Shown: positions 12,463-31,229 of the stretch, piece after piece
How the letters are laid out: every line of letters begins with the position of its first letter
Position numbering within the stretch: position 1 is the stretch's first letter
Source: Rhodospirillaceae bacterium Spongia-Bin9
Lineage (GTDB): Bacteria > Pseudomonadota > Alphaproteobacteria > Bin65
NCBI GenBank assembly: GCA_900197615.1
Contig: FZLR01000015.1
Span: forward strand, 1 to 45,216
DNA length: 45,216 nucleotides
Direction of reading: 5' to 3'
Notes under the pieces: model-generated
What the model saw: the letters and a program-made list of their open reading frames with translations, nothing else
What the model was told of the DNA's origin: nothing
The model's database searches: none
Program-made: the position numbers and the translations under genes

Positions 12463-12909
12463 TCAGGCCGCGGTCAATTCCCGAATTCGGGCGTTGGTGG
12501 CCTCCAGGCGTTTGGCCAGTTCGCGCATGATTTCGACTCCGATCTGCGGAAATTCCATGACCAGCCGGAAAAACAGCTCTTTTGAAACCACCATCGTATC
12601 GAGCCGGGTCGTCGCTTGCACGGTTGCCGTACGCGGGACATCCGTGAGGATGGCGATCTCGCCGATCAGTGCGTTCCTCCGGAAATGCGCCACGGTCAGC
12701 GGCCCCTCGTCCGTATCGATGATCACGTCTGCTTCGCCGTCGACAATGATATAGGCGCTGTCGCCCTCGTCGCCCTGGCGAAACAGGAATTCGCCCTCGC
12801 CGTAGGTGTGCCGTTCGCTGGTGAACGCCAGGAGCTTCAGTTTCGACGATTCGATATTCGCGAACATCGGGATGTTGCGCAGAATTTCAACTTCTTCGTT
12901 CAGACTCAC
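12463..12909 (-). CDS. Single-domain cyclic-nucleotide-binding protein
   Basis: 148 residues, almost entirely a CAP/PKA-type cyclic-nucleotide-binding domain (about 12–130). It has the beta-roll start (FLFRQGDEGDSAYIIVDGEADV) and a phosphate-binding cassette, LIGEIAILTDVPRTATVQA, with the conserved Glu and Arg that contact the ribose-phosphate. There is no DNA-binding helix-turn-helix, so it is not a Crp-type regulator. The start is GTG with GGAGG seven bases upstream. It lies 72 bp downstream of the ABC protein gene on the same strand and probably senses cAMP or cGMP for that system (inference). Confidence 0.88.
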   Translation of the reverse strand: MSLNEEVEILRNIPMFANIESSKLKLLAFTSERHTYGEGEFLFRQGDEGDSAYIIVDGEADVIIDTDEGPLTVAHFRRNALIGEIAILTDVPRTATVQATTRLDTMVVSKELFFRLVMEFPQIGVEIMRELAKRLEATNARIRELTAA

Positions 12910-12981: not shown

Positions 12982-15711
12982 CTATTCGGACTCCAGAAGT
13001 TCCCGCAGCACCGAACCTTCCTTGTCGAGCTCGGCGAAACTGCCCTGTTCGACGGCCCGGCCGCCTTTCAGCACGACGATATGGTCGAAGTTCCGGGCGA
13101 ATCCCGGCCGGTGCAACGACCAGATGACACCCCGACCCTTCATTTCGCCCAGGAAGGCGTCGAGCACCCGGCGCTGGGCGGCGCCGTCCAGATTGCTGAT
13201 GCCTTCGTTGACGATGAAGAGTTCCGGCCGCTTGATCAGGCCGCGAGCCATGTTGACCTTCTGGCGCTGCGCCGCCGACAGCCGCGCGCCGCCGACGCCC
13301 ACCGAATGCGCAAGGCCTGCCACCATCACGGCATCGCGCAGCGACAGAGAATCGAGCACTTCGCCGATCAGGGTGCTGAGCTTGCCGTCAGCGTTGGCTT
13401 CGCCATAGGAGACCTTGCCGAACAGGATGTTGTCCTGCAGGGTCGCCGCCCGGTTGTAGCGGTTCGGATCGAAAAACTCGACTTCGCCGCGCAGCATGTC
13501 CGGCAAGGTTTCGGCGAATATTTCCCGCGCTTTCAGCGCCTTGGCCTGGATGCCCTCGGTCAGCAGTCCCAGCCGGTGGCGTGCGGGGATCAGCTTGAAT
13601 GGCAGCGATCGCAGCCGGAACCGGTCCTCTTCCCGCATCTCGTCGGGAGACTGTCCGGCCGTTCTTGCCAGCAGTTGCTGATATTCCGGCATCTCTTCGG
13701 AGCCGAAGAAGCTAAACTGATCGAAGAAGGCGTGGCCCGGCGGCAGGTCGGCAAAAATCTCGACCATCGTTTCGGTGAGCTGCCGTCCGACTTCGAGCAA
13801 CGGATCGGCAAGATCGGACTCGTGTATGACCTGCCGGACGAAGGGATGCTCGGCCAGGCGGTCGATATCGAAGGCGCCGCCGGCCGGTGTGCCGAACAGC
13901 AGGTTTTCGGCAAGCGTTGCGTTGGTGTTGTAGCGCGCCCGGTCGAAGGGCTCGACCAGCGCCGACTGACGCGATTCGTCGAGCCTGCTGCGCAGGGCTG
14001 CCCGCGCGGTCAACATCGCTTCTGCCAGGTCCGGCCGCTCGTCCGGATCGATCGTCCCGCGCAGGCCGAACCGGTACAGGTCGTCGCCCAGATCGAGCAG
14101 CCGCAGCATGTCGACGCATTTCCGGTCGAGCGCCGTGCGGTCGGCAACGCCGGCGGCTTCGTAGTCCACCCAGTCCGCCGCCGGGTCGGCATCGATATTC
14201 GCCGCCGCGTGCGCGTCCCGGATATAGCGGTCGAGCCGCGTTCGGTCGGAGGCCGGGTCAGCCGCTGTGCGAAGGGGCCTATGGCGCAGGCCATAGTCCA
14301 GATTATCGCGCAGGTTTGTCGAGAAGAGGTGCGGCGTCGGGCCGGCGAAAGACATCCTGCGCCCGGTAAAGGGTTCGGGCAGATCGTCGAGGCGCTGGCC
14401 GCCGAGTTCGATCCGGCCGCCGGTGCCTTTCAGAAGGCGGGCCAGCAGCAACGCCAGATCGTCGCGTCCGCTGCTGCCGCTGCCGACGATGGCTGTGTGC
14501 CTGTCCAGATCGATCGAGAAATTGGCGCCGTCGACGGTCTTGGACTGGCCGTCCTCGGAATAGGCCAGGCCGGAGGCATCGAGCGTGTTGCCCACCGACT
14601 CCGGCCCGGCATCGTCGGTCAACTGCAGAGCCTCGTCGAACAGTCCGGGCGGATCGAACTGCTCGATCACCGATTCGTACTTCACCTTGATGTCGGCCTG
14701 GAGCTGGTAATAGTTCAGCAATTCCTTCCAGGGCGAGCTGAGGTCCTTGTAGGCCGCCAAGACAGCGGTCAGCGCCCCGATCGTCATGTCGCCGGCAATC
14801 ACAAGATAACCACCGATGGCGTAAAAGAAGAACGGCGTGAGTTGCGCCATGAAGCTGTTCAGAAACTTGATGGCAAACTTCCGGCGGAAAATCTCGTAGC
14901 GGATGGTGTAGATGCGGTCGAGGCGCCGGGCGATGCCGGCACGCTCGTAGACCGATGCGTCGTTGGCATGGATTTCGGCGATGCCGGCGATCGATTCGCC
15001 GATGTTTTCGGCCAGGCCGCGCACCTCCCTCACCCGCGCCTTGCCAAGCGCGATAACCCGCTTCTGCAATTTCGGAATGACGTAGATCTGCAGCGGATAA
15101 AGCGCCGTTGCGGCGAGGCCGAGAAAGACATCCTGGGCGAAAATAAAGCCGAGATAGACGAGCAGTAGACCGCCGAAATACAGCGGCGTGGACGTCGCTG
15201 TGCCAATATAGCCGCCGACCGGCTCGACCTCGGCGGTAATCATCGGGATGATCTCGCCCTGGGAGACCTTCTTGAAATGGGGCAGCGGGAAGCGAAGGAT
15301 GCGCGAATAGAGCATGTAGCGCAGCCGGCGCAGCATCTGTTCGCCCAACCGGCCGGCATAGACGTTCAGCACATATTTCACGCCGCCGCTGAGGATCACG
15401 AAAAACAGGAAGCCGAAGCTGAGCGCCATCAGGAAGGCGATCTGCTCCATTTCGGCGCCGAGAACGTCGCGCGCCCAGCCGCCATTCGCCCCGATAGCCT
15501 GATCGATGATCGCCTTGGGCAGCTCCAGCGTCAGGTAGATGATCGGCCAGGAGACGAAGGTCAGTCCGAGCACAACAAGCTGCTGGCGCTTGCTGTATTT
15601 CATGATGAAGCGGAAAATGCTTCGCTCCAGAGGCACGTTCGGCCGATAGCCGGGTGTCTCGGCCCCCGGCAGCCGGCCGGGGTGCTCGCCTTCCGCTCGG
15701 GCTTCAGGCAT
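12982..15711 (-). CDS. ABC exporter-like protein with expanded, degenerate ATPase domain
   Basis: 909 residues from the chosen ATG. Residues about 30–335 form a type-I exporter membrane domain (six helices). The nucleotide-binding domain follows but is abnormal: Walker A reads GSGSSGRD (410–417; the Lys and Ser/Thr are replaced), the signature reads LSAAQ (811–815) and Walker B reads LFIVNE (831–836; Asp changed to Asn). An H-loop His (867) remains. Walker A and signature are about 400 residues apart, against about 100 normally. Three copies of the post-Q-loop segment occur: LRDNLDYG (467–474), RYNTNATLAENLLFG (593–607) and RYNRAATLQDNILFG (751–765). ATP hydrolysis is doubtful. Start uncertain (up to 15804). 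Divergent from the glycosyltransferase run. Confidence 0.85.
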   Translation of the reverse strand: MPEARAEGEHPGRLPGAETPGYRPNVPLERSIFRFIMKYSKRQQLVVLGLTFVSWPIIYLTLELPKAIIDQAIGANGGWARDVLGAEMEQIAFLMALSFGFLFFVILSGGVKYVLNVYAGRLGEQMLRRLRYMLYSRILRFPLPHFKKVSQGEIIPMITAEVEPVGGYIGTATSTPLYFGGLLLVYLGFIFAQDVFLGLAATALYPLQIYVIPKLQKRVIALGKARVREVRGLAENIGESIAGIAEIHANDASVYERAGIARRLDRIYTIRYEIFRRKFAIKFLNSFMAQLTPFFFYAIGGYLVIAGDMTIGALTAVLAAYKDLSSPWKELLNYYQLQADIKVKYESVIEQFDPPGLFDEALQLTDDAGPESVGNTLDASGLAYSEDGQSKTVDGANFSIDLDRHTAIVGSGSSGRDDLALLLARLLKGTGGRIELGGQRLDDLPEPFTGRRMSFAGPTPHLFSTNLRDNLDYGLRHRPLRTAADPASDRTRLDRYIRDAHAAANIDADPAADWVDYEAAGVADRTALDRKCVDMLRLLDLGDDLYRFGLRGTIDPDERPDLAEAMLTARAALRSRLDESRQSALVEPFDRARYNTNATLAENLLFGTPAGGAFDIDRLAEHPFVRQVIHESDLADPLLEVGRQLTETMVEIFADLPPGHAFFDQFSFFGSEEMPEYQQLLARTAGQSPDEMREEDRFRLRSLPFKLIPARHRLGLLTEGIQAKALKAREIFAETLPDMLRGEVEFFDPNRYNRAATLQDNILFGKVSYGEANADGKLSTLIGEVLDSLSLRDAVMVAGLAHSVGVGGARLSAAQRQKVNMARGLIKRPELFIVNEGISNLDGAAQRRVLDAFLGEMKGRGVIWSLHRPGFARNFDHIVVLKGGRAVEQGSFAELDKEGSVLRELLESE

Positions 15712-15905: not shown

Positions 15906-17198
15906 ATGGCGACAGACAAGGCAGCGCGAGTCCAGGCCGAGGCGGTCCTGCGGGGCGCAGGCGACGGTGAGTTCCTCCCGGCCGATGCGCTGGGCGACGG
16001 CTTCCGCATCCTGATCTACAGCCACGATAGCTTCGGACTCGGGCACCTGCGTCGCTGCCGCGCCATCGCCCACGCGCTGGTCGAGCATCGCAGCAACCTT
16101 TCGGTGTTGATCCTCTCCGGTTCGCCGATCATCGGCAGTTTCGATTTCCGCTCGCGGGTCGATTTCGTGCGCGTTCCCGGCGTCATCAAGCTACGCAACG
16201 GCGAATATACCGCACTGAACCTGCACATCGGCCTGCAACAGACGCTGGCCATCCGCGCGTCGATCATCCGGCATACCGCCGAGGTATTCGCGCCGCACCT
16301 GTTCCTGGTCGACAAGGAACCGCTGGGCCTGCGCGGCGAGATCGAGGACACGCTGGCGTTCCTCAAGGAGCGGCGGACGCCCCTGGTGCTCGGCCTGCGC
16401 GATGTAATCGACGAGCCCGAGCTGCTGCTGCCGGAATGGGAACGCAAGAACGCCGTGCCGGCGCTGTCGAAATATTACGATTCTATCTGGGTCTACGGTC
16501 TGCCGCAGATCTGCGACCCGCTTGCCGGAATGCGCGTACCGAAATCGGTGCGGCGCAAGATGGTCTATACCGGATACCTGCGGCGGGACCTCCCGGCCAG
16601 CGGACCGGCCGACCCGGTTCCGCTCGACAATCCCTATATTCTGGTCACGCCCGGCGGCGGCGGGGACGGCGAGGCGCTGGTCGACTGGGTGCTGCGCGTC
16701 TACGAACAGCGCCGCAACATGCCGCTGCGCGCCGTCATCGTGACCGGTCCCTTCATGCAACAGGAGAAACAGGCTGAGTTCCAGCAGCGGGCTGCGGCGC
16801 TGCACGATGTCAGCGTGACGACATTCGATGCGACGCTGGAATATCTGATCTCTGGCGCCGAAGCGATCGTCGCCATGGGCGGATACAATACATTTTGCGA
16901 AGTTCTTTCCTTCGATAAGCGCGCCCTGCTTGTGCCCCGGACCGAACCGCGACGCGAACAGTTCATCCGCGCCCGCCAGGCCCAGGAGGCCGGCCTGCTG
17001 ACCGTGCTGGAAGACGACGGAATTCGCGATGTCAAACCGATGGCGACGGCGCTGCGGCAACTCCCGCAGCAGAACAGGCCGTCGGATATCGTTGTGCCGG
17101 GATTGCTCGACGGGCTGGATAACGTCAACCGGCTGGTCGGGCGGATCATGGATCGCCGGCGGGCAAGGGCCCTGCCAGGCACCGTAAAGGCCGTCTGA
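15906..17198 (+). CDS. MurG-like glycosyltransferase (first)
   Basis: 430 residues, GT-B fold. After about 30 unconserved residues comes FRILIYSHDSFGLGHLRRCRAIAHAL, whose GHLRR (46–50) matches the acceptor-site GHxxR of MurG-like enzymes. The C-terminal half has a donor-site glycine loop (LVTPGGGGDG) and AMGGYNTFCEVLSF with the Glu expected to bind a sugar nucleotide. The sugar and acceptor are unknown. ATG 15906 is chosen for the GGAG five bases upstream; the frame opens at 15816 without support. First gene of a rightward run through 22180, divergent from the ABC protein. Similar in layout to the gene at 20283. Confidence 0.88.
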   Translation: MATDKAARVQAEAVLRGAGDGEFLPADALGDGFRILIYSHDSFGLGHLRRCRAIAHALVEHRSNLSVLILSGSPIIGSFDFRSRVDFVRVPGVIKLRNGEYTALNLHIGLQQTLAIRASIIRHTAEVFAPHLFLVDKEPLGLRGEIEDTLAFLKERRTPLVLGLRDVIDEPELLLPEWERKNAVPALSKYYDSIWVYGLPQICDPLAGMRVPKSVRRKMVYTGYLRRDLPASGPADPVPLDNPYILVTPGGGGDGEALVDWVLRVYEQRRNMPLRAVIVTGPFMQQEKQAEFQQRAAALHDVSVTTFDATLEYLISGAEAIVAMGGYNTFCEVLSFDKRALLVPRTEPRREQFIRARQAQEAGLLTVLEDDGIRDVKPMATALRQLPQQNRPSDIVVPGLLDGLDNVNRLVGRIMDRRRARALPGTVKAV

Positions 17199-17202
17199 GA
17201 CG

Positions 17203-18504
17203 TTGGCGGAACGGCACAGGCCGCCGCACCGGCCGCAGGGCGCGCCGCGACCGCCCGGACCGATCGCCTTTGTCTTGAAGGGCTATCCGCGCCTGTCCGA
17301 AACTTTCATCGCACAGGAAATTCTGGCGCTCGAGAAACTGGGGCTGGATATACGCCTGTTCTCCCTGCGCCACCCGACAGACTCCCGGCGCCACCCGATC
17401 CATGACGAAATTGCGGCGGCGGTAACCTATCTGCCCGAATATCTGCATCGCGAGCCGGGCCGCGTCGGGTCGGCCTGGCGGCGGGCGCGGCGCTTACCGG
17501 GCTACAGGGACGCCTTGCGGATATGGTGGCGCGATCTGCGCCGCGACAGGACCCGCAACCGCATCCGCCGCTTCGGTCAGGCCATGGTGCTGGCGGCGGA
17601 GCTGCCGGCCGGATCCGTGCGGCTTCACGCCCATTTCCTTCACACGCCGTCGTCGGTTGCGCGCTACGCCGCTATCATGACCGGACTGCCCTGGAGCGCC
17701 GCGGCACACGCCAAGGATATCTGGACGATTCCGGAGTGGGAGAAGCGGGAAAAGCTGGCCGACTTGGACTGGCTGGTCGCCTGCACCCAGTATGCTTGTG
17801 CGCACCTTCGCGGCCTCGCGCCGTGTCCGGACAAAGTAGGCCTCGTCTATCACGGGCTCGACTTGCGGCGATTTTGCCCGACCGATGCAGCCGCGTCGCG
17901 GCGGGACGGATCCGACCCGGCGGAACCGGTCCGTCTCCTGTCGGTCGGGCGCGCCGTCGAGAAAAAGGGGTTTCGGGTTCTGATTGAAGCGCTGGCGTTA
18001 CTGCCCGGAACGATGCACTGGCGCTGGACCCTGATCGGCGCCGGCCCCCAGCTGGCCGAACTCCGGCGGCTGGCCGCGCAACGGGGCATCGCCGAACGGA
18101 TCGACTGGCGTGGCGCCCTGAATCAGGAGGCGGTGCTGTCTGCCTACCGCGCGGCGGACCTGTTCGTCCTGCCCTGCCTTGTCGGCGAAGACGGCGACCG
18201 GGACGGGCTGCCCAACGTCCTGATGGAAGCGCAGAGCCAAGGCCTGTGCTGCCTTTCGACCCGGACGTCGGGAATTCCGGAACTGATCGACCATTTGAAA
18301 ACAGGCGTCCTCGTCGAGCCGGGCGAAGTCGACCCCTTGAAAGGTGCGCTGACGCACCTGATCGCCGATCCGGAGCGGCGTCGGAATTTCGGCGCGGGCG
18401 GCAAGGCGCGGGTCTGCGCGGGTTTCGATGCTTCGGTCACCGTTCGGGCGCTCCACGACCGGTTCGCCGGCTGTAGCCTGCATCCGGCTGCGGGTGCCCT
18501 GTGA
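17203..18504 (+). CDS. GT4-family glycosyltransferase (first)
   Basis: 433 residues. The N-terminal domain shows IAFVLKGYPRLSETFIAQEI, a start typical of GT4 capsule and exopolysaccharide enzymes, then LHAHFLHTPSSVARYAA. The C-terminal domain shows the E-x7-E-like donor region in LPNVLMEAQSQGL, followed by STRTSGIPELI. A retaining transferase using a nucleotide-sugar is expected; acceptor unknown. Translation appears to begin at TTG 17203, four bases after the previous stop, since no ATG or GTG precedes the conserved region. Its last four bases overlap the next gene. Confidence 0.88.
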   Translation: MAERHRPPHRPQGAPRPPGPIAFVLKGYPRLSETFIAQEILALEKLGLDIRLFSLRHPTDSRRHPIHDEIAAAVTYLPEYLHREPGRVGSAWRRARRLPGYRDALRIWWRDLRRDRTRNRIRRFGQAMVLAAELPAGSVRLHAHFLHTPSSVARYAAIMTGLPWSAAAHAKDIWTIPEWEKREKLADLDWLVACTQYACAHLRGLAPCPDKVGLVYHGLDLRRFCPTDAAASRRDGSDPAEPVRLLSVGRAVEKKGFRVLIEALALLPGTMHWRWTLIGAGPQLAELRRLAAQRGIAERIDWRGALNQEAVLSAYRAADLFVLPCLVGEDGDRDGLPNVLMEAQSQGLCCLSTRTSGIPELIDHLKTGVLVEPGEVDPLKGALTHLIADPERRRNFGAGGKARVCAGFDASVTVRALHDRFAGCSLHPAAGAL

Positions 18505-19676
18505 AGATCGCATTTTACGCGCCGATGAAACCGCCGGATGCGCCGCGGCCTTCCGGCGATCGTACGATCGCCCGTCTGCTGCTGCGGGCGATGGCTATTG
18601 CCGGCCACGAGGCGACGGTCGCCTCCGCCGTGCGCAGCTACATGGCGGCCCCGACAGACCGGGATTGCCTGAAGCAAATCGAGCGGCAGGCGGGCGACGA
18701 TGCCCGTCGGCTGACGGAAACGCTGCGCCGCGACCCGCCCGATCTCTGGTTCACCTATCATCTTTTCCACAAGGCGCCGGACCTGGTCGGGCCGCCGGTC
18801 TGCCGGGCGCTCGGCTTGCCCTATGCGATCGCCGAAGCCAGCTTCGCGCCGAAGCGGGCGGGCGGGCCGTGGGCTGTCCGGCACGCTCAGGTGCGCGACG
18901 CCCTCGGCCTGGCCGACCACATTTTCTTTCTGAACCCGGGGGACGAAGCCTGCGTGCTGCCGGAGATGAAGACCGGCGCGACCCATTCGCGTTTGCCCGC
19001 TCTGGTGACTGTGCCGGCGGACCGCGAACCGGAGAGACGCGATGTATACAGGCGGCAATTGGCGCACAGATGGCGGCTGCCCGAACAAGCGGTCTGGGTT
19101 CTCGCAGTCGGCATGATGCGGCCCGGCGACAAGCTGGATTCCTATACCTTGTTGGCAGAAAGTTGGGAAAAATGTGCCGATCTGCCGGCGCATCTGCTGA
19201 TCGCCGGCGATGGCCCGGCCGGCGCCGAGGCCCGGCAGCGATTTGCGTCGAGCGCAGACCGGGTCAGCTTTCTCGGAACATTGGAGCCGGGCGATTTGGA
19301 TTCTGTATACAAGACAGCCGATTTATTCGTTTGGCCGGGTGTGAACGAGGCTGTTGGGATAGCATTGCTGGAAGCCATGGCCGCCGGACTGCCGGCGGTG
19401 TCCGGCTTCTGGGGGTCGGTTGCGCAGGAGATCGAGCCGGGCGCCACCGGACTTGTCGCCCGGACCGATCGCGATTTCGCAAAGGCAATCGGCAGCCTGG
19501 TCGCCGATCCGGACTTGCGGCTAACCTTGGGCGCAGCGGCCCGGGAGCATGTCCTTCGGCAGCACAGCTTGTCGGCTGCCGCGATTTCGTTGACCGAAGC
19601 CTTCGATGACGTAGCCAGCCGAACCGGAGCGGGACGCACCGGGACATGCCGCGCCGGCGCGGGCCGCACCGCATGA
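18501..19676 (+). CDS. GT4-family glycosyltransferase (second)
   Basis: 391 residues starting at GTG 18501 (GTGA overlap with the previous stop). It opens with KIAFYAPMKPPDAPRPSGDRTIARLL, a GT4 N-terminus, and carries LFVWPGVNEAVGIALLEAMAAGLPAV, with the two donor-binding glutamates near residue 285–293. Mid-protein LLIAGDGPAG is also typical. The last 20 residues are a Gly/Arg/Thr-rich tail that runs into the next gene and is probably unstructured. Tight coupling on both sides indicates one polycistronic glycan pathway. Confidence 0.87.
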   Translation: MKIAFYAPMKPPDAPRPSGDRTIARLLLRAMAIAGHEATVASAVRSYMAAPTDRDCLKQIERQAGDDARRLTETLRRDPPDLWFTYHLFHKAPDLVGPPVCRALGLPYAIAEASFAPKRAGGPWAVRHAQVRDALGLADHIFFLNPGDEACVLPEMKTGATHSRLPALVTVPADREPERRDVYRRQLAHRWRLPEQAVWVLAVGMMRPGDKLDSYTLLAESWEKCADLPAHLLIAGDGPAGAEARQRFASSADRVSFLGTLEPGDLDSVYKTADLFVWPGVNEAVGIALLEAMAAGLPAVSGFWGSVAQEIEPGATGLVARTDRDFAKAIGSLVADPDLRLTLGAAAREHVLRQHSLSAAAISLTEAFDDVASRTGAGRTGTCRAGAGRTA

Positions 19677-20293
19677 CCGGAATCCTGTTTCTCCGGCACG
19701 GGCCGACCGACTGGAACGCCGAAGGGCGCGTTCAGGGTCAGACGGATGTGCCCCTGAACGATACCGGCCGGCAATCCGTCCGCGGCTGGCAGTTGCCGCG
19801 CTACACAGCCGGATGGGAGTGGCATTCCAGTCCGCTCCGCCGGGCTGTGGAAACGGCGACGCTTCTCGGCGCCGATCCTGCCCGCCTGCATCTCGACGAT
19901 CGCCTGAAGGAGGTCAACTGGGGCGACTGGGAAGGGGCGATTCTCAAGAAGCTACGCGCCGAGCAGGGCGAAGTTATGCGGCGGATCGAGGCCCGTGGCC
20001 TCGATATGGCCGCGCCCAATGGCGAAACCCAGCGCCAGTTGACCGAACGGCTGGCGGGGTGGCTCGCCGAGGCCGCCGGCCGGAACCGCGATATCTGCGC
20101 GGTCTGTCATGCTGGCGTTCTGCGCGCCGCATACACAATCGCCACCGGCTGGGATATGCACCGCGCCGCGCCGCTCGAAAGTGGCCACGCCTGGGCGCAT
20201 CTTTACCACCTGGGCGAGGACGGCACCCTGACGCCCGAGACGCTCAACATCCGCCTCGCCGACAGCGAGCCGCCGTCCGGCTATGACCGATAG
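19673..20293 (+). CDS. Histidine phosphatase superfamily protein
   Basis: 206 residues from ATG 19673, overlapping the previous stop by 4 bp. Phosphohistidine motif ILFLRHGPTDWN at the start, SSPLRRAVETA for phosphate contact, and the second histidine in VCHAGVLRAAY. The broad family includes phosphoglycerate mutases and sugar- or nucleoside-phosphate phosphatases (CobC/GpmB type). In this setting it may dephosphorylate a sugar phosphate or glycan intermediate such as a phosphoglycerate-linked sugar (inference). The frame extends to 19646 but has no support there. Confidence 0.88.
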   Translation: MTGILFLRHGPTDWNAEGRVQGQTDVPLNDTGRQSVRGWQLPRYTAGWEWHSSPLRRAVETATLLGADPARLHLDDRLKEVNWGDWEGAILKKLRAEQGEVMRRIEARGLDMAAPNGETQRQLTERLAGWLAEAAGRNRDICAVCHAGVLRAAYTIATGWDMHRAAPLESGHAWAHLYHLGEDGTLTPETLNIRLADSEPPSGYDR

Positions 20294-21434
20294 GACATCG
20301 CCCCCGGCGATCCTGTTCTGGGTCCAGCATCTTCTCGGCGTCGGCCATCTTGCCCGGACGGTCGCACTCGCCAGAAGCGCCGCAGCCCACGGCTATGCCG
20401 CCCATATCGCAAGCGGCGGCGGGCACGTTCCGGGCATCTGCACCGGCGCTGCGAGGCTCCACCTGCTTCCCGCACTGCGCGCGGCCGACGATTCGTTCGG
20501 CGGCCCGGTCAACGAGCACGGCGCTCCGGTTGGCGACGCAGACTGGCAAGCGCGCCGCGACCGGATCGCGTCCGTGCTTCGCGACGTCCGGCCGCAGCTT
20601 TTCGTTCTGGAACATTTTCCGTTCGGCCGCCGCGCGTTCCGGGAGGAAATCTCAGACTGTCTCGATCTCGCGCGGGCCTTGGGCGATACCAAAGTCGCCG
20701 TTTCTGTGCGGGATATCCTTGTCGAACGGAAGCCGGCGCGGTGGGCCGAAACCGCCGGTTTCGTCGAGCGTGAGGTCGACCGTGTGTTCGTTCACGGCGA
20801 TCCTGCCTTCGTCGCCCTGGACGATACCTTTCCGTTGGCCGCCAGGATTGCCCCGAAACTTCACTATACCGGGTATGTCGACCTGCTGCCCGCCGAGGCG
20901 AAAATGCCGGCGCAGGCGGAACCGGAAATCCTGGTCAGCAGTGGCGGCGGCGGCGTGGGGTCGGCTTTGCGGGAGGCTGCCGTCGCGCTGGGCGTGGGAC
21001 CGAACGGCGAGCCGATCCGGGTGCGCGCCGGGCAGGCCGTCCCAGCCGCGGACCTCGAAGGCTTGCGGGCTTCTGCCGGTCCGCGAGTCGTCGTAGAGCG
21101 AAATCGCCCGGATTTCCGTGCGCGGCTGGCCACCTGTGCCTGCTCGGTCTCCCAGGCAGGTTACAATACCGTCGTCGACCTCCTGAAGACCGGAGCCCCT
21201 TCGGTGCTCGTCCCGTTCGACGCCGCCGGCGAAACCGAACAGATGCGCCGGGCGCGCCGGTTGGAAGCGATGGAACGGGCGGTGGTTCTGCCGGAAGCCT
21301 CATTGACGGCTGAACGGCTCAAAGGAGCGATCGCTGCAGCGCAGGCGCTGCAGCGCCGGCCTGTCCCGGTGCGGCTGGATGGCGCCGAATCGTTTGTCGC
21401 GGCCGCACGCGACCTGATCGGAGCGTCGGCATGA
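20283..21434 (+). CDS. MurG-like glycosyltransferase (second)
   Basis: 383 residues, overlapping the phosphatase gene by 11 bp. AILFWVQHLLGVGHLARTVALA carries the GHLAR acceptor motif at residues 21–25. The donor domain has a glycine-rich loop (VSSGGGGVGSALREA) and SQAGYNTVVDLLKTGAPSVLVPF, as in GT28 C-terminal domains. It matches the layout of the gene at 15906 (GHxxR, GGGG loop, GYNT), so the locus has two divergent enzymes of this type. The expected pocket Glu of GYNTxxE is Asp here. Sugar unknown. Confidence 0.86.
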   Translation: MTDRTSPPAILFWVQHLLGVGHLARTVALARSAAAHGYAAHIASGGGHVPGICTGAARLHLLPALRAADDSFGGPVNEHGAPVGDADWQARRDRIASVLRDVRPQLFVLEHFPFGRRAFREEISDCLDLARALGDTKVAVSVRDILVERKPARWAETAGFVEREVDRVFVHGDPAFVALDDTFPLAARIAPKLHYTGYVDLLPAEAKMPAQAEPEILVSSGGGGVGSALREAAVALGVGPNGEPIRVRAGQAVPAADLEGLRASAGPRVVVERNRPDFRARLATCACSVSQAGYNTVVDLLKTGAPSVLVPFDAAGETEQMRRARRLEAMERAVVLPEASLTAERLKGAIAAAQALQRRPVPVRLDGAESFVAAARDLIGASA

Positions 21435-22180
21435 CGTGCTGGAGCGATCTGCGACGCGAGCTCGATCTTTGGGCGCGGCAGGGCGAAACCCCGACCCTGT
21501 GGTGGCGCGACGACGACGCAGTCGAGCCCTCGGCGGCTCTCGACCGGGCGCTGGCGCTCGCCGGCGCGTTCGCCGCCCCACTCGCGCTGGCGGTCATACC
21601 CGCGCAGAACCGGCTGACCGAGGCAGACCTGGCCGGCCCGGTCACGCCGGTCCAGCACGGCTATGCCCACCGCAACCATGCCGGTCCGGATGCAAGGAAA
21701 TGCGAACTCGGCCCGGAACGCCGCGCCGATCACGTAATCGCCGAACTGATGACCGGCCGCGACGCGCTGGAAAAGGCGTTCGGCGGCATGTTCCGGCCGG
21801 TTCTGGTTCCGCCCTGGAATCGTCTGGGCGCTCATTTGCCGCCGATGTTGCCGGAATTGGGCTACGCCGGCCTCAGCCGATTCGGTGCGCGCGATCGCCC
21901 GGCGATCGGCGCCATGCGGATGGTCAACGCCCATGTCGACATTGTCGACTGGAAAGGCGGGCGCGGATTCATAGGCGCCGAACCGGCGCTTGCGCAGGTA
22001 ATCGGCCATCTGCGATCGCGCCGGGAGGGCGCGGCCGATCCGGCGGAAGCGACCGGGCTGCTGACCCATCATCGGGTGCATGACGCGGCCTGCTGGACGT
22101 TCCTCGAAAAACTGTTCGCGGTTACAGCCGAAAAGGGCATTGCCGAGTGGCGCAGCGTGGCGTCGTTATTCTACGCTTGA
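21431..22180 (+). CDS. Polysaccharide-deacetylase-like protein
   Basis: 249 residues, overlapping the previous gene by 4 bp (ATGA). It has a carbohydrate-esterase-4-like pattern: an acidic metal/base motif in LWWRDDDA (Asp27–Asp29), HGYAHRNH (His76, His80, His83) for the metal, RPVLVPPWNR, and a late histidine in LTHHRVHD. No signal peptide is visible, so it may act on a cytoplasmic or lipid-linked acetylated sugar rather than exported polymer. It is the last gene of the glycosyltransferase run. Confidence 0.8.
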   Translation: MTCWSDLRRELDLWARQGETPTLWWRDDDAVEPSAALDRALALAGAFAAPLALAVIPAQNRLTEADLAGPVTPVQHGYAHRNHAGPDARKCELGPERRADHVIAELMTGRDALEKAFGGMFRPVLVPPWNRLGAHLPPMLPELGYAGLSRFGARDRPAIGAMRMVNAHVDIVDWKGGRGFIGAEPALAQVIGHLRSRREGAADPAEATGLLTHHRVHDAACWTFLEKLFAVTAEKGIAEWRSVASLFYA

Positions 22181-22183
22181 GTC

Positions 22184-22696
22184 ATGACCGTGCAGCGCTA
22201 TCCGCGCACGACCCTGCGCAACGATTATGTCCGCGCCGCTGTTGGCGTGGCTCTGTGCGTGCCGTTGGCGGCGGTTTCGCGGGGAAGCTCGTTCGGTTTC
22301 TGGCTGTTTATTGGCCTGACCTTGCTGTTTGCCGTCTTCGCCGCGCGGACCTGGCTGCGCGGGCGCGCGGAATACAGATTGACCGAAGCGGGACTCCTGC
22401 GCACAAATGCCGCGCTCAAAGGGCAGGCGCCAACCGGGATCGCATGGTCCGAACTGTCGGGCCTGACGCTGCGCTTCTATCCCCTGCGCCGCGACAGGTC
22501 CGACGGGTGGATGCAATTGACCGTGCGTGCGGCCGGCGCGCGCCTGTCCATCGATTCTACACTTGAGGATTTCGACGCCATCGCCGAAGCGGCGCTGGCG
22601 GCCGGACTGCGCAACGACCTGCCGATGACCCAGACCACATTGGCGAATTTCCGGGCCCTGGGTTTCTCGCCCGAGAAACCTGTAGACTCCGGCTGA
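22184..22696 (+). CDS. Small membrane protein with PH-like C-terminal part
   Basis: 170 residues, no specific family recognised. Two hydrophobic helices lie at about 18–34 and 37–54, followed by EYRLTEAGLLRTNAALKGQAPTGIAWSELSGLTLRFY, a pattern of beta strands resembling bacterial PH-like (bPH) domains attached to membrane hairpins. It starts 3 bases after the deacetylase stop and ends 18 bp before the peptide-transporter ATPase, so it may belong to either unit. Function unknown. Confidence 0.7.
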   Translation: MTVQRYPRTTLRNDYVRAAVGVALCVPLAAVSRGSSFGFWLFIGLTLLFAVFAARTWLRGRAEYRLTEAGLLRTNAALKGQAPTGIAWSELSGLTLRFYPLRRDRSDGWMQLTVRAAGARLSIDSTLEDFDAIAEAALAAGLRNDLPMTQTTLANFRALGFSPEKPVDSG

Positions 22697-22714: not shown

Positions 22715-24613
22715 GTGACCGGACCGCTGATCGATATCCGCAACCTGCATGTGTCCTTCGCGGTGCATGGCGGCGAAGTCCCGGCGGTGCGCGGCGCCTC
22801 GTTCCGGATTCCGGCCGGCGGCACGGTAGCGCTCGTCGGCGAGAGCGGCAGCGGCAAGACCGTAATCTCCCAGACCCTGATGGGCATCCTGCCCAACAAC
22901 GCAATAATCGGACAGGGCGAGGTTCTGTTCCGGGATCCGGAAGGGGACGGCGGCACGATCGACCTGGCGGCGGAAGACCCTGACGACACGCGCATGCGCG
23001 CGATCCGCGGCGGGCGTATATCGATCGTCTTTCAGGAACCGATGACCTCGCTGTCGCCGCTGCACACCATCGGCGACCAGATCGGCGAAGCGCTGAGCCT
23101 GCATCGTGCGGTCGGCGCCAAGGAGCGGGACGAAGCGGTAACCGACATGCTCCGCCATGTTGGGTTCCCCGATCCGCAGCGCGCGCTAAGGACCTATCCG
23201 TTCGAGCTTTCCGGCGGACTACGTCAGCGCGCCATGATCGCCATGGCGCTGGTGTGCCGCCCAGCGCTGCTGGTCGCCGACGAGCCGACGACGGCGCTCG
23301 ACGTGACCATTCAAGCGCAGATCCTGAAACTGATCCGCGACTTGCAGGCCGAATTCCATATGGCGGTGCTGATGATCACCCACGATCTGGGCGTGGTTGC
23401 CAACGTCGCCGAAGAGGTCGTCGTGATGTACCACGGCGAGGTCATGGAAGTCGGCACAACCGAACAGATCTACCGCGATCCCCGCCACCCCTATCTCAAG
23501 GCGCTGATGAAGGCGGTGCCGCGCTTCGACATGAGCCGCGGCGAGCGCCTGACCCCGCTGCGCGAAATCGAGGCGGATTCCGGACATCTTATGGCCGAAC
23601 GTGCGCCCTGGCCGGACGACGCGGATCGAGCGGGCCCGCTGTTACGGGTCGAAAACCTGGTCAAGAGCTACCGAATCCGCAAAGGCGGAGCCGCCGCCGC
23701 GGTGCGGGCCGTCGACAATGTCAGTTTCGATATCCACCGCGGCGAGTGCCTGGGCCTGGTCGGCGAGAGCGGCTGCGGCAAGACGACCCTCAGCAAGACG
23801 ATCATGCGCGCCCTGACGCCGGATTCGGGCCGGATCGTCTACAACAAGCGCGGCGACCTGCGGGATGTGCTGGCCCTGAAGGGCGAGACGCTGAACGAAT
23901 ACCGCCGGGACGTGCAGTTCATCTTCCAGGACCCGTTCAGTTCGCTCAATCCGCGCATGACGGTGTTCGATATCGTCAGCGAGCCCTTGAAGATTCACGA
24001 AATCGGCGATGCCGCGCACCGCCGGGAGATGATTGCGGAACTGCTACGCCGGGTCGGCCTCGATCCCCGTTTCCTGAACCGCTATCCCCATTCCTTCTCG
24101 GGTGGCCAGCGCCAGCGCATCGGTATTGCGCGCGCGCTCGCCCTCAAGCCCGACCTTCTGATCTGCGACGAGCCGGTATCGGCGCTCGACGTCTCGATCC
24201 AGGCGCAGATCCTGAACCTGCTGCGCGATCTGCAGAAGGATTTGGGACTCACCTACCTGTTCGTTTCGCACAATCTGGCGGTCGTGAACTATGTTGCCGA
24301 CCGGATCGCCGTGATGTGCGCCGGGCGCATCGTCGAGGTCGCCCGTGGCGAGACGCTGTTCCGCAACCCGGTCCATCCCTATACCAAGGCGCTGGTCGCG
24401 GCCGTGCCGGAGCCGGACCTGAGCCACAAGCTGAACTTCGCCGCCCTGATGGAGGGCAAGGCCTCCTCTCCCGAAGCCTGGCCGGAGCCGTTCGCCCTGC
24501 GCGGGCCGGAACAGGCGGAGGCCTTCCACGATGTCGGCGGCGGCCACCTGGTGCGCGCCTGGGAGGACGCCGTGCTCGACGGCGCGCCGGGCCGGACGGA
24601 GGCAGGACCGTGA
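22715..24613 (+). CDS. Peptide-type ABC importer, double ATPase subunit
   Basis: 632 residues made of two complete ABC domains. First half: Walker A GESGSGKT, signature LSGGLRQR, Walker B LLVADEP. Second half: GESGCGKT, FSGGQRQR, LLICDEP. Each half is followed by the oligopeptide-transporter C-terminal pattern (HPYLKALMKAVP; HPYTKALVAAVPEP). This fused layout is that of YejF / GsiA-type importers of peptides. GTG at 22715 follows AGGCGG. The stop overlaps the GTG start of the binding protein. Order ATPase–binding protein–permease–permease makes a complete importer. Confidence 0.94.
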   Translation: MTGPLIDIRNLHVSFAVHGGEVPAVRGASFRIPAGGTVALVGESGSGKTVISQTLMGILPNNAIIGQGEVLFRDPEGDGGTIDLAAEDPDDTRMRAIRGGRISIVFQEPMTSLSPLHTIGDQIGEALSLHRAVGAKERDEAVTDMLRHVGFPDPQRALRTYPFELSGGLRQRAMIAMALVCRPALLVADEPTTALDVTIQAQILKLIRDLQAEFHMAVLMITHDLGVVANVAEEVVVMYHGEVMEVGTTEQIYRDPRHPYLKALMKAVPRFDMSRGERLTPLREIEADSGHLMAERAPWPDDADRAGPLLRVENLVKSYRIRKGGAAAAVRAVDNVSFDIHRGECLGLVGESGCGKTTLSKTIMRALTPDSGRIVYNKRGDLRDVLALKGETLNEYRRDVQFIFQDPFSSLNPRMTVFDIVSEPLKIHEIGDAAHRREMIAELLRRVGLDPRFLNRYPHSFSGGQRQRIGIARALALKPDLLICDEPVSALDVSIQAQILNLLRDLQKDLGLTYLFVSHNLAVVNYVADRIAVMCAGRIVEVARGETLFRNPVHPYTKALVAAVPEPDLSHKLNFAALMEGKASSPEAWPEPFALRGPEQAEAFHDVGGGHLVRAWEDAVLDGAPGRTEAGP

Positions 24614-26544
24614 TCGCCCGGAAGCTGCTCATTGCCGCAATTGCCGCATCTGCCGTGTATCGTGCGGGCGGAAGCGAAGCGGCGCAGGCAGCCTCTTATA
24701 TCGAGCCACCGTGGTTCGATCCGAAGATTGCAACCGGCGTCCTACCGCCGGTCGCACTGCGGCTGCCGGAGATTCCGTCCGTCGTTTCCTTTGTCGGCAG
24801 CACCAAGAAACCGGGGCGATACGGCGGTTCGCTGACCATGCTGATGGCGCGGGCCAAGGATACCCGGATGGCCGTGGTCTACGGCTATGCCCGGCTCGTG
24901 GCCTACGATACCCGCTACCGGCTCAGGCCCGATATCCTGGAGCGATTCGAGGTCGAGGAAGGTCGGATTTTCACCTTCACCCTGCGCAAGGGCCATCGCT
25001 GGTCCGACGGCGCGCCTTTCACCACCGACGATTTCCGCTATTGGTGGGAGGCTGTGGTGCACAACAAGGTACTGTCCCGCTTCGGCGTGCCCCAGGCGCT
25101 GCTGGTCGACGGCCGAATCCCGAGAGTCGAGTTCATCGACCGCTACACCGTCCGTTACAGCTGGGACAAGCCGAACCCCTATTTTCTGCCGGCGCTGGCC
25201 GGGCCGCGGCCGCTCTACCTGTATATGCCGCGCCACTATATGAAGCGCTTCCACATCGATCATGCGGAGAAGAAACTGCTCCGAAAGATGACGAAGAAGG
25301 GCAAGAAGCCGGACGGCTGGGCAAAGTTCCATCGCAAGCGCGGACGGATGTACCGCTTCCAGAACCCCGCGCTGCCGACATTGCAGCCCTGGATACCGAC
25401 CACGGCGCCGCCGGCAGACCGCTATGTTTTCGTCCGCAACCCGTATTTCCACCGGGTCGACCGGAACGGACGCCAGCTGCCCTATATCGACCGGCTGGTC
25501 TTCATTATCGCCGACAGCAAGATCGTCGCCGCCAAGGCCGGCGTCGGCGAGACCGACCTGCAGGGTCGCTACCTGCGCTTTACCGATTTCACCTTTCTCA
25601 AGCGCGGCGAAGAGAGGGGCAAGCACAAGGTTTATCAGTGGCAGACCGCCGTCGGCGCCCAGATCGCGCTCTATCCGAACCTGAACCACAAGGATCCGGT
25701 GTGGCGCCGGCTGTTCGGCGACGTCCGCTTCCGGCGCGCGCTCTCCCTGGGCATCGACCGGCGCGAAATCAACCAGGTCATGTATTACGGACTGGCCACC
25801 GAGGGCGGCAATACGGTCCTGCCGGGCAGCCCTCTGTTCCGGCCGGAATACCGCAATGCCTGGGCGCGCTTCGACCCTGCAAAGGCGAATGCCCTGCTGG
25901 ACGGGATCGGCCTGCGCAAACGCGACAGCGAAGGCTACCGCCTGTTACCCGACGGACGGCCGCTGGAGATCATCGTCGAGGCGGCCTCGGAAGGCAGCGA
26001 ATACACGGACGCCATGCGCCTGATCAAGGATTCCTGGCGCGAAATCGGCATTCGCCTGTTCCAGAAAAACACCCGGCGCGAGATGTTCCGCCGCCGGGTC
26101 TATGCCGGGCTGACCCATATCGCGATGTGGTCCGGCATCGACTATGCCAATGTCCGGGCAGAGAGCCCGCCGCTGGCCCTGGCGCCGACGGATCAGGTAC
26201 AGCTTCAATGGTCGCAATGGGGCCTGTACCATGCGAGCAAAGGCCGGTCGGGCCGGAAACCGACCGATCCGGGCGCAATACGGCTGATCGAATTGCTGCG
26301 CCGCTGGGAGGCGGCAGGGTCGACCGCGCAACGCCGGCAGATCTGGCACCGGATGCTGCAAATCTCGGCCGACCGGGTCTATTCGATCGGCATTGTCGGC
26401 GGCGTCATCCAGCCGGTTGTTGTCAACGTGCGGCTGCGCAACGTGCCGAAGACCGGGGTATGGGCCTGGAATCCCGGTGCTCATCTGGGAGTTTACCGGC
26501 CGGATACCTTCTGGTTCGAGAAGGCGGCCGGGACGACCCGCTGA
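24610..26544 (+). CDS. Extracellular solute-binding protein, peptide type (family 5)
   Basis: 644 residues from GTG 24610 (GTGA overlap). A signal peptide covers about 1–31 with no lipobox, so it is a free periplasmic protein. The family-5 pattern is clear: FTLRKGHRWSDGAPFTTDDFRYWWEAV, ERFEVEEG before it, and RRALSLGIDRREINQVMYYG. Length is close to YejA-type proteins (about 600) rather than DppA/OppA (about 540). A very basic stretch near residue 215–250 (KKLLRKMTKKGKK) is unusual for a periplasmic binding lobe and may favour anionic ligands. The frame is open far upstream to 23254, overlapping the ATPase gene, and that part is not real. Confidence 0.93.
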   Translation: MIARKLLIAAIAASAVYRAGGSEAAQAASYIEPPWFDPKIATGVLPPVALRLPEIPSVVSFVGSTKKPGRYGGSLTMLMARAKDTRMAVVYGYARLVAYDTRYRLRPDILERFEVEEGRIFTFTLRKGHRWSDGAPFTTDDFRYWWEAVVHNKVLSRFGVPQALLVDGRIPRVEFIDRYTVRYSWDKPNPYFLPALAGPRPLYLYMPRHYMKRFHIDHAEKKLLRKMTKKGKKPDGWAKFHRKRGRMYRFQNPALPTLQPWIPTTAPPADRYVFVRNPYFHRVDRNGRQLPYIDRLVFIIADSKIVAAKAGVGETDLQGRYLRFTDFTFLKRGEERGKHKVYQWQTAVGAQIALYPNLNHKDPVWRRLFGDVRFRRALSLGIDRREINQVMYYGLATEGGNTVLPGSPLFRPEYRNAWARFDPAKANALLDGIGLRKRDSEGYRLLPDGRPLEIIVEAASEGSEYTDAMRLIKDSWREIGIRLFQKNTRREMFRRRVYAGLTHIAMWSGIDYANVRAESPPLALAPTDQVQLQWSQWGLYHASKGRSGRKPTDPGAIRLIELLRRWEAAGSTAQRRQIWHRMLQISADRVYSIGIVGGVIQPVVVNVRLRNVPKTGVWAWNPGAHLGVYRPDTFWFEKAAGTTR

Positions 26545-26590: not shown

Positions 26591-27589
26591 ATGATCCGCT
26601 ACATCGCCCATCGCCTGTTGATCATGGTGCCGACGCTGATCGCGATCAGCTTTATCGTGTTCGTCGTCATCCAGCTGCCGCCCGGCGACTATCTGACAAC
26701 GCTGATCGAGGAACTCCGGGAGCTGGGCGAACCGGCCGACCTGAAGCAGATCGAGGCGTTGCGCGAGGAATACGGCCTCGATCGACCTTTCCTGATCCAG
26801 TATGCCGGATGGGTCGCCGGGCTGGTCCAGGGCGATCTCGGCTATTCCTTCGAATACGAGCAGCCGGTGGCCGACGTGGTCGGCGACCGGCTTTGGCTCT
26901 CCTTCATCGTCTCCGTCGCGACCATCGTCTTCACCTGGATCGTCGCCTTCCCGATCGGCGTCTATTCGGCGACGCACCAGTACAGCTGGGCCGACAATTC
27001 ACTCACCTTCCTGGGCTTCCTGGGGCTGGCGACGCCGAACTTCCTGCTCGCGCTGGTCATGGTCTACTTCGCCAATGTCTGGTTCGGCACCGAGATCGGC
27101 GGCCTGATGGACGAGCGGTATATCGGCCAGCCGTGGAACTGGGGGAAGATCGTCTCGGTCCTCGAGCATCTGTGGATTCCGGTGATCGTGATCGGCACCT
27201 CGGGAACCGCCGGCATGATCCGCCGCCTGCGCGCCAACCTGCTGGACGAGCTGCAAAAGCAATATGTCGTGACCGGGCGGGCCAAGGGCCTGCCGCCGTT
27301 CCGGTTGTTGGTCAAATACCCGCTGCGGATGTCGCTCAACCCGTTCATATCCGATATCGGCGACCTGCTGCCCCAGGTGATTTCCGGCGCGGTCATCGTG
27401 TCGGTGGTGCTCAACCTGCCGACGACCGGCAAGATGCTTTACGAGGCGCTGCTCAGCCAGGACATGTATCTGGCGGGCTCCTTCCTGATGTTCCTCGCCC
27501 TGCTGACCGTGCTCGGCGTGCTGGTCTCCGATCTGGCGCTGGCGCTGCTCGATCCGCGGATCCGGCTTCAGGGACGGGCGGCGAAATGA
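26591..27589 (+). CDS. Peptide ABC importer permease, first subunit
   Basis: 332 residues of the DppB/YejB type. It begins MIRYIAHRLLIMVPTLIAISFIVFVVIQLPPGDY (first helix), and has the EAA cytoplasmic loop around RAKGLPPFRLLVKYPLRMSLNP that docks on the ATPase. Six helices are expected. It begins 46 bp after the binding-protein stop and overlaps the next permease by 4 bp. Length and the loop QPWNWGKIVSVLEHLW are usual for this family. Confidence 0.94.
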   Translation: MIRYIAHRLLIMVPTLIAISFIVFVVIQLPPGDYLTTLIEELRELGEPADLKQIEALREEYGLDRPFLIQYAGWVAGLVQGDLGYSFEYEQPVADVVGDRLWLSFIVSVATIVFTWIVAFPIGVYSATHQYSWADNSLTFLGFLGLATPNFLLALVMVYFANVWFGTEIGGLMDERYIGQPWNWGKIVSVLEHLWIPVIVIGTSGTAGMIRRLRANLLDELQKQYVVTGRAKGLPPFRLLVKYPLRMSLNPFISDIGDLLPQVISGAVIVSVVLNLPTTGKMLYEALLSQDMYLAGSFLMFLALLTVLGVLVSDLALALLDPRIRLQGRAAK

Positions 27590-28785
27590 CCGGGCGAGCG
27601 GCATCCCCGCCCGGCGGCGGCGATCCGCCGGCCGGGCCGGCCAACGAACGCTTCGTTTCCCAGGCGCCGTTCGATCCGCATTCCATCGAAGCGCTGACGC
27701 CGGAGCAGGAGCGCTACTACCTGGCCGGCCAGTGGAAGCTAATGTGGTGGAAACTGCGGCGCCACAAGGTCGCGGTGTTCTGCGGCGGATTGCTGGTCTT
27801 CATGTATGTGTGCGCCATGCTGGCGGAGCTTCTGGTCCCCTACAATATGGCGGCGCGGCACACCGGCTTCATCTATGCGCCGCCGCAGGCGGTTCGGCTC
27901 TTCCACGAGGGGCGTTTTGTCGGCCCGTTTGTCTACGGCCTGAACTACAAGCTGGATCGCAATACCCTGCAGAGAACATATACGGTCGACCGTTCAAAAA
28001 TACACCGCGTCCGTTTCCTGTGCCGGGGCGATTCGTACCGTTTTTGGGGGCTGGTCTCCCTGGAAATACGCCTGTTCTGCCCCGCGAGGGATGGCACACT
28101 ATTCCTCCTCGGCACCGACCGGATGGGGCGGGACATGTTCTCCCGGCTCGTCATCGGATCGCGAATCTCGCTCACCATCGGCTTTATCGGCGTTACGATC
28201 AGCTTCCTCTTGGGCATCGTGATCGGGGGGCTCGCCGGCTACTACGGCGGCTGGGTCGATGCGATCGTCCAGCGCATCATCGAGGTGTTGCGGTCTTTCC
28301 CGGTGCTACCGCTGTGGATGGCGCTGTCCGCCGCCCTGCCGGTTACCTGGTCGCCGCTCTGGATCTATTTCGGCATTACCCTGATCCTCGGCCTGCTCGA
28401 CTGGACCGGCCTGGCGCGGGCCGTGCGGTCCAAGCTGTTCGCGTTGCGGGAGGAGGATTTCGCGACGGCCGCCCAATTGATGGGCGCCAGCCCGCGCCGG
28501 ATCATCGGCCGGCATCTGCTGCCCAGCTTCACCAGCCACCTGATCGCCTCGGCGACCCTTTCCATCCCGGCGATGATCCTGGGCGAAACGGCGCTGAGCT
28601 TTCTGGGCCTCGGCCTGAAACCGCCGATTACGAGCTGGGGCGTACTGCTGTCGGAAGCGCAGAATATCAACGTCGTGGCGCTCTATCCCTGGCTGATGCT
28701 GCCGGTGGTGCCGGTGATCGTTACCGTGCTAACTTTCAATTTCCTCGGCGACGGTCTGCGCGACGCCGCGGATCCGTACAAGTGA
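27586..28785 (+). CDS. Peptide ABC importer permease, second subunit
   Basis: 399 residues of the DppC/YejE type. An N-terminal cytoplasmic stretch of about 60 residues precedes the first helix (KVAVFCGGLLVFMYVCAML). A large periplasmic insert of about 85 residues follows before LGTDRMGRDMFSRLVIGSRISL, typical of YejE-like subunits. The EAA loop is ATAAQLMGASPRRIIGRHLLP, and ILGETALSFLGLGLKPP closes the family pattern. ATG 27586 overlaps the previous stop. It ends 16 bp before the convergent cyclase gene. Confidence 0.94.
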   Translation: MTGRAASPPGGGDPPAGPANERFVSQAPFDPHSIEALTPEQERYYLAGQWKLMWWKLRRHKVAVFCGGLLVFMYVCAMLAELLVPYNMAARHTGFIYAPPQAVRLFHEGRFVGPFVYGLNYKLDRNTLQRTYTVDRSKIHRVRFLCRGDSYRFWGLVSLEIRLFCPARDGTLFLLGTDRMGRDMFSRLVIGSRISLTIGFIGVTISFLLGIVIGGLAGYYGGWVDAIVQRIIEVLRSFPVLPLWMALSAALPVTWSPLWIYFGITLILGLLDWTGLARAVRSKLFALREEDFATAAQLMGASPRRIIGRHLLPSFTSHLIASATLSIPAMILGETALSFLGLGLKPPITSWGVLLSEAQNINVVALYPWLMLPVVPVIVTVLTFNFLGDGLRDAADPYK

Positions 28786-30190: not shown

Positions 30191-30362
30191 GGGTTCCCGT
30201 GAATGCTGCATACGCGTTGAATCCAGTATGCCGTCAAGTTTGGATGATGGATACAATCCATGTCCGGTCCGTCCGGATCGGTCGGCGGGGCCGCCACCCC
30301 GGTCATCCTGTATGTCGCGATCGATTCCGGATCGCTTGGCCCTGTTTCGGTGCGCCGCCGCC

Positions 30363-31229
30363 TCACGGTCGCAGAACGAGTCCTTCGCGGGCGACGGTCG
30401 TCGATGCGAAGACGCTCTGCGCCCGGTCGGCGATCCGGTCCATATCGTCGTCGGTATGTTCCGGCGCATGATGGAAAATGACGTAGCGGCCAACGCCGCC
30501 ACGTTCGGCAAGCTCGGCGCCAGCCTCCCAGGTCGAATGGCCCCATCCCCTGAAAGCCGGATACTCTTCCGCCGTATAGGTGGCGTCGTAAATGAAAATG
30601 TCGGTCCCCTCAATCAGCCCGAGTATGTTGGCGTCAACCTCACCCTCGACATGCTCGGTATCCGTCACATAGCAAATCGACCGGCCGCCCCACTCGATCC
30701 GGTAGCCGGTCGCGCCGTTCGGGTGGTTGAGCGGCGCGGTACGGATCGCAACGCCTTGCTGCAGCTCGAGCGTATCGCCGGCGCGAAACTCCTCGAAGCC
30801 GATCTCCGCACCGACCGCTCCCAGCGGCACCGGGAAGATCGGCGCTTCGATCAGGCGTTGGAATACGTCGCGCAGCCTGACATCGTTGTCCCACAGATGG
30901 CCAGCGTGGATGCGCAGCCGGTTACCCGATTTGAACAGCGGAACAAAAAAGGGCATCCCAACGATGTGATCGATATGGGTGTGGGTCAGCAGAATATCGG
31001 TATCGACCGGCCCCGCAGCGTCCAGTTCCGCTCCCAGAACACGCATGCCGGTGCCGGCGTCGAAAATGAACAGATGGCCGGCGCAGCGCACCTCAAGGCA
31101 CGAAGTGTTACCGCCATAGCGGGCGTAGTCTATGCCGGGACAGGCGACCGTGCCGCGGACACCCCGGAAGCGGACGAAAAAGTCCTCGCTGAGTGCCGTG
31201 CTGGCGTGTGTCGTGCTGGCGGCGGTCAT
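30363..31229 (-). CDS. Metallo-beta-lactamase-fold hydrolase
   Basis: 288 residues. The metal motif THTHIDHI gives His83, His85, Asp87 and His88; further ligands are likely in LNHPNGATGYR, CYVTDTEHVEG and FHHAPEHTDDD. The open RFRGVRGTVACPG N-terminus and YGGNTSCLEV are typical of RNase Z / phosphodiesterase-like members. The substrate is not known; placement upstream of a class III cyclase suggests a cyclic-nucleotide phosphodiesterase, but this is inference. 172 bp separate it from the cyclase start, so separate promoters are possible. Confidence 0.87.
   Translation of the reverse strand: MTAASTTHASTALSEDFFVRFRGVRGTVACPGIDYARYGGNTSCLEVRCAGHLFIFDAGTGMRVLGAELDAAGPVDTDILLTHTHIDHIVGMPFFVPLFKSGNRLRIHAGHLWDNDVRLRDVFQRLIEAPIFPVPLGAVGAEIGFEEFRAGDTLELQQGVAIRTAPLNHPNGATGYRIEWGGRSICYVTDTEHVEGEVDANILGLIEGTDIFIYDATYTAEEYPAFRGWGHSTWEAGAELAERGGVGRYVIFHHAPEHTDDDMDRIADRAQSVFASTTVAREGLVLRP

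Follow-up and report, generated by a model that had tools for sequence, protein, structure and literature searches.

What does an ABC exporter do once its ATP site has been taken apart and its ATPase domain enlarged? This question is raised by a gene (12982..15711, - strand) in the window, by which we mean the whole 45,216-nucleotide stretch of DNA analyzed here. In its 909-residue product, an earlier note, made from the letters alone, had recognized an exporter-type membrane domain, a degenerate ATP site and repeats of a normally single segment, and had proposed a signal-gated channel, flippase or scaffold. The answer that we favor, though tentatively, is a pseudo-ATPase exporter scaffold that would be controlled by a cyclic nucleotide and serve a surface-glycan pathway.

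Pfam analysis of the protein returned an exporter transmembrane domain (TMD; PF00664, 4.5e-18, exceeding the gathering score) together with a weak ABC domain that is split (PF00005, 1e-8, 36.3 bits against a cut-off of 25). The type IV exporter TMD spans residues 28-355 (14647..15630, -) and is the most conserved part of the protein; a predicted model of the whole chain matched type IV exporters with Z of about 29. Walker A reads GSGSSGRD (residues 410-417; 14461..14484, -) and departs from GxxGxGK[ST], with Arg replacing Lys and Asp replacing Ser/Thr. Walker B reads LFIVNE (residues 831-836; 13204..13221, -), with Asn for Asp and the Glu retained, and the signature reads LSAAQ (residues 811-815; 13267..13281, -), so that the combination of an LSGGQ signature and a Walker B Asp-Glu found in type IV exporters is missing. 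The Q-loop Gln is also missing, and the switch His is retained at residue 867. Walker A and the signature lie 401 residues apart, versus about 105 in a canonical exporter of the same genome (L213). The earlier note had been accurate on each of these points: the absent Walker A Lys and Ser/Thr, the Asn in Walker B, and a spacing of roughly 400 residues.

This added length contains repeats. ENxLFG-like segments had been placed at residues 467-474, 593-607 and 751-765, with the last two 158 residues apart; all three were found there, and the distance is correct. We defined three units: (i) U1, residues 446-580 (13972..14376, -), with the Q-loop strand, the first ENxLFG copy, helices, an AR helix and an extra W514 loop; (ii) U2, residues 581-737 (13501..13971, -), with the second copy; and (iii) U3, residues 738-830 (13222..13500, -), with the third copy and the recognizable signature. 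Non-overlapping profiles of the units were cut from 66 aligned family members and compared by hhalign with each other and with a canonical profile built from exporters of related genomes, using 200 column shuffles as controls for each of the six comparisons. U2 and U3 matched with a score of 73.0 (probability 98%; shuffle maximum 22.2), U1 and U2 with 34.5 (73%; 23.0), and U1 and U3 with 27.5 (45%; 19.4). Scores against the canonical exporter profile were 61.2 for U1, 28.6 for U2 and 88.6 for U3 (shuffle maxima 22.1, 20.4 and 25.5, respectively). The observed score was reached by 0 of 200 shuffles in every comparison, and all three units align in one Q-loop/TIxxNIxxG register of the canonical profile. 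Judged by these profiles, copies 2 and 3 are clearly homologous; copy 1 matches them more weakly, through short alignments of modest probability, yet it outscores every one of the 200 shuffles.

The repeat extends beyond the ENxLFG motif and starts at the strand preceding the Q-loop. A similar helix, bearing an invariant Arg (R570 and R729), precedes each of U2 and U3, and the stretch common to both runs from this helix through FD-x-x-x-YN and ENxLFG into the next helices. Because a third invariant Arg, R823, sits in the helix after the signature, the unit may begin at the Q-loop strand and extend as far as the signature helix. The additional loop of U1 bears an invariant Trp, W514, and U2 contains about 60 additional residues. 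Taken as sequence evidence, these comparisons support an ATPase domain in which the Q-loop/helical-subdomain block occurs three times in tandem.

The predicted structure is compatible with this arrangement. The full-length model had a mean pLDDT of 81, with most of the ATPase part above 85, and its nucleotide-binding domain (NBD) aligned with the entire ComA NBD (239 residues) at 1.9 A. The insert modeled alone (residues 500-770) reached a pLDDT of 91, and the strand-loop-helix-strand pattern around ENxLFG recurs in the confident model. A fold search with the insert alone gave weak matches, led by residues 737-806 of the ABC exporter IrtAB (Z 3.8, 70 aligned, 2.6 A), which are the Q-loop/helical region of that exporter; two further ABC NBDs stood lower in the list (VIA, all Z values low). 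Foldseek with the insert alone returned no match below E 0.001, and a new fold does not follow from the lack of a strong match. Because these matches are weak, the duplication rests on the sequence profiles. The earlier proposal of an internal duplication of the helical subdomain thus gains from the block comparisons, and the model agrees with it without being decisive.

The gene is a member of a widespread, uncharacterized family rather than an isolated degenerate gene. It was found in 11 of 11 genomes of the window's order, and a profile of the insert matched 131 of 385 sampled alphaproteobacterial genomes (about a third), including those of the model organisms Sinorhizobium meliloti and Rhizobium leguminosarum. 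The same profile matched 31 of 398 sampled Pseudomonadota genomes, all 31 in the window's class; an insert-bearing protein also occurs in a few assemblies labeled gammaproteobacterial. Matches were obtained in 262 plasmid records, mostly from Rhizobium and Sinorhizobium and with pSymB among them. Phage records gave no match, which ruled out a phage origin. A sequencing or assembly artefact was ruled out as well, since independent genomes carry an uninterrupted gene (30-91% identity) whose insert hardly varies in length. The window's own genome has no second copy, which excludes an own-genome paralogue. Some other genomes carry two or three divergent insert-bearing copies (G163, three places; G338; G052, two places). 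At one locus (L014, 1-4230), the ABC frame is about 1410 aa long and opens roughly 500 residues before the usual start, which reflects either a fusion or merely an open upstream frame.

Loss of ATP-site motifs runs through the whole family. The insert is present in all 128 collected sequences and the complete set of ATP-site motifs in none: the Walker A Lys is kept in 45, the Walker A Ser/Thr in 10, the Walker B Asp in 22, and an LSGGQ-like signature in 3. No relative with intact Walker A and B and without the repeats was found among them. Mean pairwise identity across the family is 0.54 for the TMD versus 0.26-0.42 in other regions, and within the same taxonomic family of genomes it is 0.83 for the TMD versus 0.67-0.74 for the NBD. 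Two ordinary exporters of related genomes gave TMD/NBD values of 0.69/0.82 and 0.38/0.61. Conservation is therefore inverted relative to ordinary exporters, with the membrane domain more constrained than the ATPase domain.

The most constant companion of the family is a cyclic-nucleotide-binding (cNMP) domain. In the window it is a stand-alone protein of 148 aa (12463..12909, -; PF00027, 3.5e-18) that keeps GEIAILTDVPRTA and in which no other domain was found. A cNMP domain was fused to the ABC protein or encoded adjacent to it in 64 of 64 loci assessed, a linkage to an exporter of the HetC type (see below), and was present in 22 of 23 long regions. It was fused at the ABC C-terminus in 31 of 65 loci and lay next door on the same strand in the other assessed loci; two loci scored as fused automatically are adjacent genes in an overlapping frame. 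At least three fusion/fission changes are needed on the TMD tree. Most fused domains retain the phosphate-binding cassette pattern GELAL...R. The window genome (4.06 Mb) has four cNMP domains in total, one of them inside the window. In one locus (L035), a GGDEF (diguanylate cyclase) domain follows the cNMP domain of the ABC protein, and L038 is similar in length and tail. Family members are annotated merely as ABC transporters. The stand-alone partner, in which no DNA-binding domain was found, is sometimes labeled a Crp/Fnr regulator. One such case is the 154-residue partner in S. meliloti (CP130050.1 462738-463202; L235 20739-21203), which bears the name Crp/Fnr family transcriptional regulator although a cNMP domain was the only one found in it. 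Because the cNMP domain is paired with the ABC protein in every locus assessed, the signal-gated role suggested for a channel, flippase or scaffold in the earlier note now appears more likely.

Downstream of the ABC-cNMP pair lies a small SAM methyltransferase (PF12692; 11922..12443, -), a frequent neighbor. On the other side, divergent from the ABC gene, are a GT28-like glycosyltransferase (15912..17198, +), two GT4 glycosyltransferases (17203..18504, + and 18501..19676, +), a histidine phosphatase (19646..20293, +), a second GT28-like glycosyltransferase (20283..21434, +), a polysaccharide-deacetylase-like protein (21431..22180, +; named after an annotated Azospirillum homologue, with no Pfam match here) and a small protein conserved in the cluster whose family is unassigned (22184..22696, +). 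This cluster facing the ABC-cNMP pair ends with a four-gene peptide importer, composed of an OppDF-type ATPase with two ordinary NBDs (22715..24613, +), the peptide-binding protein SBP_bac_5 (24619..26541, +), permease 1 (26591..27589, +) and permease 2 (OppC_N; 27601..28782, +). In the window it is followed by a membrane class III nucleotide cyclase (28802..30613, -; PF00211, 2.3e-11), the true start of which is probably downstream of the ORF start. About half of 20 long genome regions show the glycosyltransferase/importer order, complete or almost complete, in a scan that is reliable for genes other than SBP_bac_5 and importer permease 2. A modified form of the glycosyltransferase cluster occurs in Sinorhizobium, Rhizobium and Azospirillum, and the cluster is missing from many lineages. 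Shimia is one of these; there, a predicted ketoacyl synthase and a MaoC-like dehydratase, both of fatty-acid type, adjoin the gene. A small acyl-carrier-like protein is also often adjacent in Shimia (L054 2988-5456 and other loci).

Class III cyclases are a further, less regular element of these neighborhoods. Homologues of the window cyclase occur in the same cluster of other genomes, and in several lineages cyclases of various subtypes are encoded next to the ABC gene or close to it. The window genome has five class III cyclase domains in total, one inside the window. A class III cyclase turned up within the flanks in only 7 of the 65 short regions and in 8 of the 23 long ones, where two of the hits are weak; it is thus not an obligate neighbor. 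The window cyclase has the sequence VNLAAKL, its Lys standing where Arg is usual in class III enzymes, and its activity is uncertain.

How might these elements work together? Several of them can be read directly from sequence, namely the architecture, the family-wide loss of motifs, the homology of the three blocks, the cNMP pairing and the recurring cluster; from these we infer the absence of ATP hydrolysis, a homodimeric state, a cyclic nucleotide as gating ligand, and the substrate. In the mechanism we propose, a type IV ABC-exporter scaffold, which is probably homodimeric, would have had its ATP site dismantled and its helical-subdomain block duplicated twice. Cyclic AMP or GMP from class III cyclases, often encoded nearby, would bind the partner or fused cNMP domain, and this binding would take the place of ATP binding as the conformational input to the membrane domain. 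The duplicated helical blocks could provide a docking or relay surface, and the membrane domain could form a gated flippase or export path or act as a membrane regulator. The cargo or target would be a glycan or glycolipid made by the neighboring glycosyltransferases. That a cyclic nucleotide may replace ATP as input is suggested by three observations in combination: the TMD is the most constrained part, the ATP site has been eroded step by step, and the conserved partner is a domain of the type that receives nucleotide second messengers. The more specific version, a bacterial cyclic-nucleotide-gated ABC protein with a dedicated cNMP subunit and with duplicated helical subdomains for docking or relay, is possible but doubtful.

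Other readings of the same data have to be weighed. The protein might still be an ATP-powered exporter with an unorthodox site that binds and slowly hydrolyzes ATP, with the cNMP domain serving only as a modulator. The NBD fold is retained, many members keep a GSGK/R[D/E] loop and an acidic residue (Glu or Asp) following Walker B, and the window protein retains the Glu and the His. Some gammaproteobacterial members keep the Walker B Asp-Glu and His, L029 with the Walker A Lys in addition, and L115 and L116 retain Lys, Ser, Asp and Glu together, having lost the signature and the His; because of such members, some of the family might bind or turn over ATP weakly. We nevertheless regard a slow ATPase as rather unlikely: the residues that coordinate Mg (Walker A Ser/Thr, Walker B Asp and Q-loop Gln) are replaced in most members, Rhizobium and Sinorhizobium members have Ala or Gly at the Lys position, and conservation is lower in the NBD than in the TMD, the opposite of ordinary exporters.

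The protein could alternatively be a non-transporting, SUR-like membrane regulator or scaffold that senses cyclic nucleotide through the cNMP subunit and organizes or switches the glycosyltransferases or another membrane partner. Pseudo-ATPase motifs together with a conserved accessory insert would suit such a role, as would the linkage to differing gene sets and the invariant W514, R570 and R729, which suggest a binding surface; the TMD, however, is the most conserved region and suggests a role in the membrane path itself, and we consider a pure regulator unlikely. A third possibility starts from the fact that one degenerate site is common in heterodimeric exporters, so that the protein could be the degenerate half of such an exporter, paired with a competent ABC exporter encoded elsewhere. 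Other exporters are indeed present in the genome, but no recurring exporter partner gene appears in the neighborhoods examined and the adjoining ABC genes are peptide importers, which makes this possibility very unlikely. If our preferred reading, the cyclic-nucleotide-controlled exporter scaffold, were confirmed, an ATP-driven machine would be convertible to second-messenger control, and some alphaproteobacterial cyclases would gain a non-transcriptional target.

We compared the family with known systems. A search of the open-licence literature, outside which most subscription journals lie, for cNMP-linked pseudo-ABC exporters and for duplication of the helical subdomain returned no paper on this family. 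The nearest published analogue found is HetC of Nostoc, a peptidase-containing ABC exporter that cannot function without its cNMP domain (PMC10986499). The cNMP domain is N-terminal in HetC, whereas in the window family it is C-terminal or encoded by a separate gene; HetC has a C39 peptidase and requires its catalytic Glu, whereas no N-terminal peptidase was found in the window protein, for which Pfam gave only PF00664 and PF00005. The cNMP domain of HetC binds ppGpp (PMC10986499), and the domain in our family thus need not bind cyclic nucleotides. MsbA2 of S. meliloti (SMb21191), a pSymB exporter-type protein, is a proposed exporter of an unspecified polysaccharide (PMC3687685, PMC12239276). 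It resembles the window family in adjoining glycosyltransferases, but identity with MsbA2 was rejected on map position: its operon lies near 938 kb of pSymB and the family member near 842 kb (strain 2011). TIGR03896 (cyc_nuc_ocin) likewise describes a cNMP protein associated with a transport system, and the window cNMP protein scores 47.8 against its cut-off of 161. SUR and CFTR put the ABC-exporter scaffold to non-pump use and retain functional nucleotide sites; the analogy with them lies in that use, and the homology we claim is that of the ABC fold only. MsbA and related type IV exporters share the TMD fold, the NBD core fold and the domain order with the window protein, which scores 148.5 of 602 bits in the MsbA model (TIGR02203), far under the equivalog cut-off. 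From that common plan, the window protein differs in having lost the ATP-site motifs, in carrying about 290 extra NBD residues and in its cNMP partner.
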